Assembly (NCBI GenBank): GCA_022573655.1
Contig: JACZTO010000001.1
Location: 94,169-158,168, forward strand
Reading direction: 5' to 3'
Length of the DNA: 64,000 nucleotides
DNA from: Pseudomonadota bacterium
GTDB lineage: Bacteria > Pseudomonadota > Gammaproteobacteria > Steroidobacterales > Woeseiaceae
Part shown: positions 7,341-28,703 of the stretch, one piece after another
How the letters are laid out: each line of letters begins with the position of its first letter
Position numbering within the stretch: position 1 is the first letter of the stretch
Translations under genes and position numbers: made by a program
Notes under the pieces: model-generated
Seen by the model: the letters and a program-made list of their open reading frames with translations, nothing else
Told to the model about the DNA's origin: nothing
The model's database searches: none

Positions 7341-7626
7341 TGGCGCCTCCAGCAGCAGACAAACTTGCCAAAGACACCAAGTGCGCGACGGTTCCACCGC
7401 AGACGCAGTGAAGTATCGTGTTGGTAACCCCGCTATCGTAGATCATGAAGACCCGTAGACCGGATGCTTTGCGACCCTGCCTTTCGACAGGTGTGCCTTT
7501 GTCAAACGAAGCGTGATCGTTGCACAGCTGAAACGGGCGTGCAACGAACTGCGCCCATCCGCCAGTTATTGTAAAGCCCGCACACCGAATATGGTTACAA
7601 CATGCGTATTGCGATAGATTGGCATA

Positions 7627-26014: not shown

Positions 26015-26281
26015 TTGTTCAGGAAAGCCGTACATTTCACATACAAGGCAGGGCGCCGCATTGTTGTCGCCGTGGCTGGAGTGACAGTACTCCTGATTGG
26101 CGTCGTCATGATCATTACGCCGGGACCCGCATTTATAGTCATACCCATTGGTCTGGCCATACTGAGCATCGAATTCGCATGGGCGCGCTATTGGCTGCAG
26201 CGGCTGCGCACCACCATAAGCCGACGAAATCTGCAAAACTTAAGCGAGCGAGCTGAAGGGCATCGTGAACGCATCGAATAA
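26015..26281 (+). CDS. PGPGW-motif small transmembrane protein
   Basis: VLLIGVVMIITPGPAFIVIPIGLAILSIEFAWARYWLQRL. Confidence 0.75.
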   Translation: MFRKAVHFTYKAGRRIVVAVAGVTVLLIGVVMIITPGPAFIVIPIGLAILSIEFAWARYWLQRLRTTISRRNLQNLSERAEGHRERIE

Positions 26282-26305: not shown

Positions 26306-26381
26306 AAAAAAAAGGCGCCGAAGCACTGTATTCAGAATCTGAATCAGTAATCGGTCCGACACGGAGCGGTCTCCGGCGCCT
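26306..26381 (-). terminator. Rho-independent terminator (minus strand): AGGCGCCG...CGGCGCCT + U8, enclosing an inner hairpin
   Basis: Plus-strand 26313-26320 AGGCGCCG pairs with 26374-26381 CGGCGCCT; A8 at 26306-26313 gives a U8 tract on the minus transcript. Inner stem ACTG-t-ATTCAGA/TCTGAAT-CAGT. Confidence 0.75.
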
Positions 26382-26536
26382 CAGAAGTAACGGCACGGGG
26401 GGTGCCGCCGGACCATCCTGGTCCGATTTCACCGGTATCCGATCCGGTGATTTCGGTAGCTGTCAGCCAGGTATTCAGGGGGAGAGAAACCTGGCCTCTG
26501 TGCCACCGAGGGACGACTGCAACCGTCACAGTTGCA
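26306..26536 (-). ncRNA. Candidate structured RNA / 3' UTR: array of consecutive stem-loops
   Basis: Perfect inverted repeats in series (plus coordinates): TGCAAC/GTTGCA 518-523/531-536; CCTC/GAGG 495-498/508-511; GCCAGGT/ACCTGGC 466-472/489-495; TCACCGG/CCGGTGA 429-435/444-450; GGACCA/TGGTCC 410-415/419-424; GGCAC/GTGCC 392-396/402-406; inner 11-bp bulged stem 325-348; closing terminator stem 313-320/374-381 (all +26000). Confidence 0.5.
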
Positions 26537-26545
26537 ATCTTCTAC

Positions 26546-26683
26546 CTAATTGTGGGCAACGCTATAGAATTCAAGGGTACCGGCGTTGCTTGCAAATGCA
26601 GTATTTGCGGCAACGGAGACGGCAACAAGAATGAGCACTGCGCCGAGCAATGCGAGTCCGTTTTCCAGGTAATTGTCTTGCAT
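26546..26683 (-). CDS. Candidate micro-protein (~45 aa), single transmembrane helix
   Basis: MQDNYLENGLALLGAVLILVAVSVAANTAFASNAGTLEFYSVAHN*; RBS-like AAAGGA upstream (alternative start ATG at 26689). Confidence 0.55.
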   Translation of the reverse strand: MQDNYLENGLALLGAVLILVAVSVAANTAFASNAGTLEFYSVAHN

Positions 26684-26760
26684 TATCATGTCCTTTGAAT
26701 GTGGTGTCACGCTTGGCGGCACACCGTTTAGCAATATCCGGGTCAGTCAATCATCCCTAA

Positions 26761-26776
26761 TGCACAACCCGTGCCA
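26761..26776 (-). promoter_or_regulatory. Candidate sigma-54 (-24/-12) promoter TGGCACGGGTTGTGCA, minus strand
   Basis: Matches TGGCACG-N4-TTGCW with one change (GTGC); invariant GG and GC at correct spacing; points at the micro-ORF and away from the divergent sigma-54 activator gene. Confidence 0.65.
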
Positions 26777-26824
26777 ATCTATTAAACAGCGTGAAAACAA
26801 ATACTTATGCTATAACACGCAGTA

Positions 26825-26876
26825 ACGGAATTCCGTAAATTACGAAAAACCGTAAGATAATTTACGAAAATTCGTA
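26825..26876. promoter_or_regulatory. Three adjacent palindromes, probable enhancer/operator sites of the activator
   Basis: ACGGAATTCCGT (26825-26836); TTACG-N6-CGTAA (26840-26855); TACGAA-AA-TTCGTA (26863-26876), all between the sigma-54-like promoter and the activator ATG. Confidence 0.6.
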
Positions 26877-26888
26877 TAGAATGCAGCG

Positions 26889-28703
26889 ATGATTTCTCAA
26901 GATGACTATCGCTGGTTGTTTCGCAAAGCGCCGATTATGGCGACGTCGATTGCGGAGCACGGCACCTTCCTTGACGTTAATGACGCGATGCTGGCCCGTC
27001 TGGGCTACACCCGTGGTGAGATGGTCGGCCAAAGCCCGGAGGAATTCGCTACGCCGGAGTGCGCCGAGAGAATTCGCACGGAGTTACGCCCAGCGCTACG
27101 GCGTACCGGCAAACTGGAAAACAAGCCCGTCAGTTTTGTCTCGCAGTCGGGGGAGGTCATCGATTGCATTACCAACGCAATTGTAGAATACGATAAAGGC
27201 GGAGAATTTCTGCGTACTGTTGCCATGTACTCCGAGGTTTCCGATCAGGCTCGAGCAAATTTCAAGTACCGTACGCTGTACCGTTCGACGCCGGCGATGT
27301 TGCACACAGTCGATGGCAATGGTCTGATCGTCACCGTTACAGACCACTGGCTGAGCAAACTCGGGTTCACTCGCGATGAGGTTGTCGGTAAATCGATTAC
27401 CGACTTTTTTAGCTTGCGAGATAGAAAATACTATGCAGACGGTGGCCTGCAGGCCCTCATTAGCGAGGGCGATTTCAAGAATCTGGAACGTCAGATGTTG
27501 GCGAAGGACGGCACTGTTCTCGACATCGTGATGTCTGCAGTTTCACACCGTGATGATTCAGGCGAGGTGGATCGCATGCTCGTCGCGTCGAAGGATGTAA
27601 CTGAGTGGCGACGGGCAGAACGCGAGCTGCGCCGCACTCTCGCTGAAAATGCCCGCCTTCGGGAGGAACTGGAGCGCGAACGCGACTATCTGCGCGAAGA
27701 AGTACATGTCGCGATGAACTTTGGGCGAATGATTGGAACCAGCGCCGCATTACGCAAGATGTTACGACGCATTGAGGCTGTTGCCGAAACGCCGGCAAAT
27801 GTCTTGGTGCAAGGTGAGTCGGGTGTGGGTAAGGAATTGGTCGCACATGCTATCCATATGCAAAGTCCACGCGCCAATGGACCACTGGTAAAAGTAAATT
27901 GTGCATCGATACCGAAAGAATTATTTGAAAGTGAATTCTTTGGTCATATAAAGGGCGCGTTCACCGGCGCGCACCGGAATCGCGTTGGCAGATTTCAGCT
28001 TGCGGACGGTGGCACAATATTTCTGGATGAAGTGGGCGAAATTCCCTTGGAGCTGCAGGGGAAACTGTTGCGCGTACTTCAAGAAAGCGAATTTGAGCGA
28101 GTCGGCGATGACATTACTCGTTCGGTCGACGTTCGCGTGATTGCCGCGACGAATCGAGACCTGGAGAAATTGATCGTTCAGGGTGACTTTCGTGAAGACC
28201 TGTTTTACAGGCTTAGCGTTTTCCCGGTGGATGTGCCGCCCTTGCGCGAACGTGAAGAGGACATTGTGCAACTGGCGCAGCACTTTCTTGAAAAGACGTG
28301 CAAAGATTTTGGACGTGACTCGTTGACACTTACGCGCTCGCAGACTGCGAACCTGAGAGCTTACAGCTGGCCTGGCAATGTGCGGGAACTCAAGAACGTC
28401 ATTGAAAGGGCCGTTATTCTGTCCGCCGGGAAGGTATTGCGTCTGGACCTTTCCATGCCGGGTCTAAGAGTGGATTTCGACACTATTGCCTCTGCAACCA
28501 CGAGCAGCGATGAGATTTTTACCGAGACGGACATGCGGAGTTTTCAGAAAAGCAATATTATCTGCGCGCTTACCCGGGCGAACTGGAAGGTGTCTGGCAA
28601 AGGCGGAGCAGCGGAGATGCTTGGGGTGCGGCCAACCACCCTGGCTGACCGGTTGAGAACGTACAAGATCAGGAAGCCCGCGAGGCAGCGGCGTGGTGAG
28701 TGA
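26889..28703 (+). CDS. Sigma-54-interacting transcriptional regulator with PAS domains
   Basis: N-terminal PAS repeats ([82 protein letters not shown]); AAA+ Walker [15 protein letters not shown] loop, FLDEVGE; C-terminal Fis-like HTH. Confidence 0.96.

Follow-up and report, generated by a model that had tools for sequence, protein, structure and literature searches.

The window analysed here, a 64,000-nucleotide stretch of a Woeseiaceae genome, harbours on its minus strand a small-peptide ORF followed by a segment of 231 nt (26306-26536) that had been predicted, from the letters alone, to encode a structured RNA. This pair is flanked by a divergent gene coding for a PAS-type activator and by a convergent gene coding for a small membrane protein (Table 1), and transcription is predicted to start at about position 26750 of the minus strand. 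The window also contains, at 7419-7506 of the minus strand, a c-di-GMP-I-GGC riboswitch aptamer scoring 63.7 bits, above the gathering score.

Table 1. Features of the locus and of the minus-strand RNA, in window coordinates.
Feature	Position	Strand	Basis and remarks
Convergent PGPGW small membrane protein, downstream neighbour, not in transcript	26015..26281	+	Pfam PF09656, E 5.8e-19
P6 terminator arm, then U8	26306-26382; 26371-26382 with 26312-26323	-	Sequence; covariation
P5 hairpin	26390-26408	-	Oligo-C loop; C4+ in 73/74 homologues
P5 loop CACCCCCC, CCCCCC	26397-26404	-	Sequence
P4 hairpin CGGACC-AGGAU-GGUCCG	26409-26425	-	Covariation helix 5; GGA in 48/74 homologues
P3 hairpin, GGA in loop	26429-26450	-	Covariation helix 4; GGA in 53/74 homologues
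P1 outer stem TCGGTGGC/GCTACCGA	26502-26509 with 26453-26460	-	Covariation (helices 1-3 = P1/P2)
P2 stem GGCCAGGT/ACCTGGCT, inside P1	26486-26496 with 26465-26476	-	Covariation (helices 1-3 = P1/P2)
P2 loop CUCUCCCCC, oligo-C	26478-26486	-	Sequence; C4+ in 74/74 homologues
Extra hairpin TGCAACTG/CGGTTGCA	26518-26536	-	Fold; outside consensus of relatives and outside covariance model R1
Small peptide ORF, 45 aa, signal-peptide/TM-like (MQDNYLENGLALLGAVLILVAVSVAANTAFAS...)	26546..26683	-	ORF reading
Sigma-54 (-24/-12) promoter TTGGCACGGGTTGTGCA	26761..26777	-	Sequence; TGGCACG-type
Three UAS-like palindromes ACGN6CGT	26825-26836, 26842-26853, 26864-26875		Sequence; mostly three per family locus
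Divergent activator PAS-PAS-sigma54 AAA+-HTH, without receiver domain	26889..28703	+	Pfam Sigma54_activat, E 5.7e-71; two PAS stretches

The same order, namely divergent activator, UAS palindromes, sigma-54 promoter, small ORF and RNA with its terminator, is common to 76 homologous loci. An activator orthologue lies at the equivalent place in all loci except those truncated at a contig end, a single sigma-54 promoter was found in 75 of the 76 loci (the 76th being cut by a contig end), and the convergent PGPGW gene is the usual neighbour across the family. A joined, paired UAS pattern searched in 20 genomes matched in five of them, once each and at the activator, which makes the RNA operon itself the probable target of the activator. 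At the sequence level, the locus combines the features of a sigma-54-dependent sRNA gene: a -24/-12 promoter, a linked AAA+ activator and UAS. With regard to the peptide, no match was obtained in Pfam or NCBIfam. Almost all of the 76 loci have a small ORF whose product begins with a hydrophobic stretch, and this product is reduced to about 30 residues in some species; longer relatives are exported and share a conserved C-terminal LDLDIRLIGRTSxxVA motif, which is gone from the short forms in the genus.

A complex fold near a regulator gene might suggest a cis-acting sensor, riboswitch or attenuator, for a neighbouring gene. However, the RNA lies 3' of the ORF and bears a terminator at its end, the next downstream gene is convergent, and Rfam returned no match for the window RNA at the gathering score or at E ≤ 1, all of which make such a sensor very improbable. 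No gene was found on the same strand downstream of the terminator; therefore, the RNA is not the leader of a downstream gene.

Fold, distribution and covariation of the RNA

The minimum free energy of the 231-nt RNA is -108.7 kcal/mol versus -77.4 ± 5.1 kcal/mol in 200 dinucleotide shuffles (z = -6.11), none of which was as stable. Its fold is a chain of hairpins, with P1 around P2, then P3, P4, P5 and the terminator arm P6 with its U8 tract. All inverted repeats listed in the original prediction are present on the minus strand, and the last stem encloses others, as had been proposed: the P6 arm holds two hairpins, P6a and P6b, in a three-way junction, the inner part being swapped for a short terminator in some relatives. 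Two of the listed repeats have to be reinterpreted. CCTC/GAGG exists in the sequence but is part of a competing pairing and absent from the conserved fold, in which the stretch forms P1 around P2, and the first hairpin (26518-26536) does fold but stands outside the conserved core. The oligo-C nature of the P2 and P5 loops, the sigma-54 promoter and the divergent activator had not been mentioned in the original prediction. Two findings had been named that would speak against an RNA: folding no better than that of shuffled sequence, which the shuffles above contradict, and coding constraint on an overlapping ORF (26344..26529, minus strand). All 22 homologues have frameshifting indels in this ORF, and 17 of them have stop codons within 55 codons; hence, it is not coding.

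All sequences compared are genomic, mostly from MAGs. By blastn, the RNA was detected in 23 of the 40 genomes searched, every one of them in the window's genus, and these homologues, folded singly, mostly adopt one common architecture. Because P1 and P3 were misaligned in raw MAFFT alignments, RNAalifold gave poor structures on them, and the covariance model of the P1-P5 core, termed R1, was therefore built from a hand-written structure followed by realignment. R1 matches 74 of the 107 Woeseiaceae genomes, 67 (out of 73) in the window's genus and 7 in other genera. Among 396 genomes of the order, a single match fell outside Woeseiaceae, in genome G255, and among 369 genomes of the class none fell outside the window's genus; a DNA pattern search of contigs gave, outside Woeseiaceae, weak R1 scores only, ≤ 26.4 bits among the matches listed. 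The copy in G255 (locus L080, contig G255:C115), where the whole unit is Woeseiaceae-like, was rejected as a genuine member from another family, since it looks like binning contamination. G255, a genome with 6% contamination, is placed in another family, the L080 activator shares 77% identity with that of the window compared with about 58% for the activators of G255's family, and the contig is probably misbinned.

Covariation was assessed on an alignment (A3) of 75 distinct rows aligned with the covariance model. In this alignment, 91.4% of cells pair versus 77.3% in shuffles, compensation is seen in 23 of the 32 pairs, and cells with changes on both sides number 335, as opposed to 103 in shuffles and no more than 83 with slid partners; being fitted to the model, the alignment is biased in its favour, and relatedness is not taken into account by the shuffle control, but the gap to the slid-partner controls is large despite this fitting. 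In a plain MAFFT alignment, P6 with P6a and P6b displays 25 versus 10.5 compensated cells. The proposal of a structured RNA is thus borne out by the stability of the fold, by abundant compensatory changes in P1-P5 and in P6, and by the non-coding nature of the overlapping ORF. As judged from the genomic sequences, this is a real, conserved and previously uncatalogued RNA family, with its gene unit, in marine Woeseiaceae.

Oligo-C loops and turnover of the stems

A run of at least four C is found in the P2 loop of all 74 homologues and in the P5 loop of 73, and both the lone P5 exception and a deletion variant keep a second C-loop hairpin. Taken together, the 74 RNAs contain 180 runs of five or more C versus three runs of five or more G, that is, 2.43 such C runs per RNA versus 1.01 in shuffles, and 93% of these C runs are mostly unpaired. 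Conserved oligo-C runs exposed in hairpin loops characterise C-loop sRNAs, and the anatomy of the RNA points to a base-pairing sRNA of this kind.

AGGA-type loops at P3 and P4 in many members, and two C loops in nearly all, would also suit a protein sponge, with the GGA loops sequestering CsrA/RsmA or the oligo-C loops serving as binding sites for a C-specific protein. Nevertheless, GGA is present in both the P3 and P4 loops in only 42 of the 74 homologues, giving two such loops at most, whereas sponges of the CsrB/RsmZ type carry many conserved ones and CsrB-type sponges far more GGA hairpins. Furthermore, two loci of the genus dispense with P3/P4 yet keep C loops: L115 has lost P3 and P4 and kept P2 and P5, and L067 has another hairpin, with a C7 loop, in place of P3-P5. 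We consider a sponge quite unlikely.

Beyond the family, activator orthologues were identified in 142 of 296 genomes of the order (families f1, f2, f3, f5, f6 and f15); within the genus, a close orthologue was not found in G090, G102 and G105, which are 80-84% complete. The upstream regions were read in the family members without an R1 match and in 20 loci of other families. Nearly all of them contain UAS palindromes, a sigma-54 promoter and a small peptide ORF, and most of them hairpins with stems unrelated to those of the window RNA, the loops being again oligo-C (UUCCUCCCCC, UCCCCCCCCC, CUCUCCCCC). Four C-rich runs follow the peptide in L262, and the P2-like hairpin alone is kept in L254 and L256. 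L288, L289 and L292 have no run of five C ahead of the called terminator and no, or poor, C-loop hairpins as called here; C-rich stretches are nonetheless present in L288 (CTTCCCCC) and L292 (CCTCCCCCT). With regard to copy number, L273 (genome G165, family f6) displays a second similar C-loop hairpin with a terminator past the first unit, likely a tandem duplication.

The small exported peptide might itself be the product of the unit, its structured 3' UTR merely stabilising or terminating the mRNA. Nearly every Woeseiaceae locus and most loci of other families indeed encode the peptide, and its mRNA would be shielded by a structured, terminator-bearing 3' end, but one terminator would suffice for that purpose, and the C loops persist through complete stem turnover. 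Moreover, the peptide dwindles in some species, as mentioned above, and L281 (genome G194) keeps promoter, C-loop hairpins and terminator with no peptide between promoter and RNA. An explanation by the peptide alone hence appears unlikely. Since the stems turn over and the C loops persist, the latter are likely the working part of the RNA, as they are in sX13 and in the CIN1/CcsR RNAs.

Proposed function and a candidate target

We think it likely that the unit produces a sigma-54-induced, C-loop base-pairing sRNA, derived from the 3' portion of an mRNA for a small peptide and exerting an anti-Shine-Dalgarno action. In this scheme, the divergent PAS-type activator would switch on a sigma-54-dependent transcript of about 445 nt, which would encode the small exported or membrane peptide and carry at its 3' end a stable RNA of about 200 nt, whether retained as a 3' UTR or released as a small RNA. 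The loops of P2 (CUCUCCCCC) and P5 (CCCCCC) would be single-stranded anti-Shine-Dalgarno seeds that lower translation by pairing, in trans, with ribosome-binding sites rich in G, probably with little need for an RNA chaperone, and P3, P4 and P6 would act as scaffold and terminator. C loops conserved on disposable stems are what would be expected of seeds for G-rich sites. What the sequences show is the structure and its conservation, the linkage of promoter and activator, the persistence of the loops through stem turnover and the conserved G run at the symporter start described below; from these we infer transcription, processing, pairing in trans and the direction of regulation.

On a broader scale, the unit may belong to an order-wide, loop-defined class with two outputs, in which a dedicated PAS activator would drive, through sigma-54, a small exported peptide and an oligo-C-loop RNA for anti-Shine-Dalgarno tuning of nutrient uptake, an extension that we hold to be nearly as plausible as its opposite. 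If it is true, oligo-C hairpin loops would be the sole lasting feature of the RNA, with freely exchangeable stems, and the members could not be joined by sequence or covariance models alone. An RNA class kept by loop content and gene context, and not by stem sequence, would escape standard homology searches.

A dicarboxylate/amino-acid:cation symporter (GltP/DctA-like) is put forward as a tentative RNA target, an assignment somewhat more likely to be wrong than right. In genome G096 (43% GC in a 328 kb sample), G7 runs are rare, with six in the 627 kb read in all; three sit 12-16 nt before predicted starts, and one precedes the symporter, for which the nearest NCBIfam model is GltP, below cut-off. 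Two neighbouring genes of G096, coding for a lipoprotein (L301:14692) and a MORN-repeat-like protein (L301:15739), have G7 12-16 nt before their predicted starts and are possible targets. Among symporter orthologues, four or more G stand beside the start codon in 28 out of 30 cases in the genus (five or more in 22) and in 7 out of 11 in other Woeseiaceae, compared with 2 out of 15 (five or more in none) in lineages of the order and class without a detected activator, figures to be read in view of the symporter having been picked for its G7 in one genome, of starts predicted by a simple script and of related species. For comparison, G096 has eight runs of five or more G at -25 to -1 among 534 genes, and in 91 orthologue pairs the symporter alone has at least four G in both genomes. 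A TIM-barrel gene (G5 in G096) was discarded as a second target, having four or more G at the start site in only one of eight relatives; as its run is not kept, this gene, chosen in the same way, provides a control for the symporter. A LivF-like gene was also discarded, its G run appearing, when read by eye, to lie within the coding sequence of the upstream gene. The link between symporter and RNA is weak in the few other-family genomes with the RNA and is not seen in most other families with it, and the G run at the symporter start may be just a strong Shine-Dalgarno sequence.

In marine sediments, Woeseiaceae rank among the most abundant bacteria; no small-RNA study of this family came up in our literature search. 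Woeseiaceae gain here a strongly supported putative RNA regulator, with its promoter, its activator and a first candidate target.

Comparison with known RNA regulators

Qrr and CrcZ are sRNAs transcribed from sigma-54 promoters that an AAA+ activator controls, and are sometimes encoded near the activator gene; unlike the window RNA, they have another fold and other motifs, and no peptide ORF. The actinobacterial 6C RNA, or mycobacterial B11, harbours two oligo-C-loop hairpins pairing with mRNAs. Its phylum and gene context are unrelated, the window RNA has additional helices, and the 6C covariance model (RF01066) gave no match to the window RNA at E ≤ 1. Nor was the window RNA matched by the model of ar14 (RF02344), an alphaproteobacterial sRNA, the best relative locus (L273) giving a weak match of 37.7 bits (E 0.0015), below the gathering score of 58.8.

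The CIN1/CcsR (cuckoo) RNAs of Alphaproteobacteria have C-rich loops, as does the window RNA. The CIN1 proteins are RNA-binding proteins of the DUF1127 type under RpoH promoters, whereas the window unit has an exported or transmembrane peptide, matching neither Pfam nor NCBIfam and thus no cotranscribed DUF1127 protein, and a conserved sigma-54 promoter instead of an RpoH-type one. The likeness resides in a gene for a small protein that shares its transcript with sRNAs and a terminator downstream. In Rhodobacter, RNase E cleaves the CcsR RNAs out of the small-protein transcript (PMC10253847). The unit parallels this unrelated CIN1 arrangement.

The Xanthomonas sX13 RNA has three C-rich loops and is Hfq-independent; it depends for its action on its own C motifs as well as on G-rich motifs close to start codons, and in the same study translation already fell when the G runs alone were changed (PMC3771888). 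As known from its published description, it resembles the window RNA in its stable stems, C-rich loops and little unstructured sequence, and it pairs with G-rich motifs around start codons, as is proposed for the window RNA. In contrast, sX13 is a stand-alone RNA of 115 nt, whereas the window RNA, of about 200 nt, lies 3' of a small ORF, has two C loops together with P3/P4, and would be under sigma-54/PAS-activator control. By analogy with sX13, CcsR and 6C, the window RNA can be regarded as a putative variant of the C-loop sRNA kind, for which we infer a function in trans.
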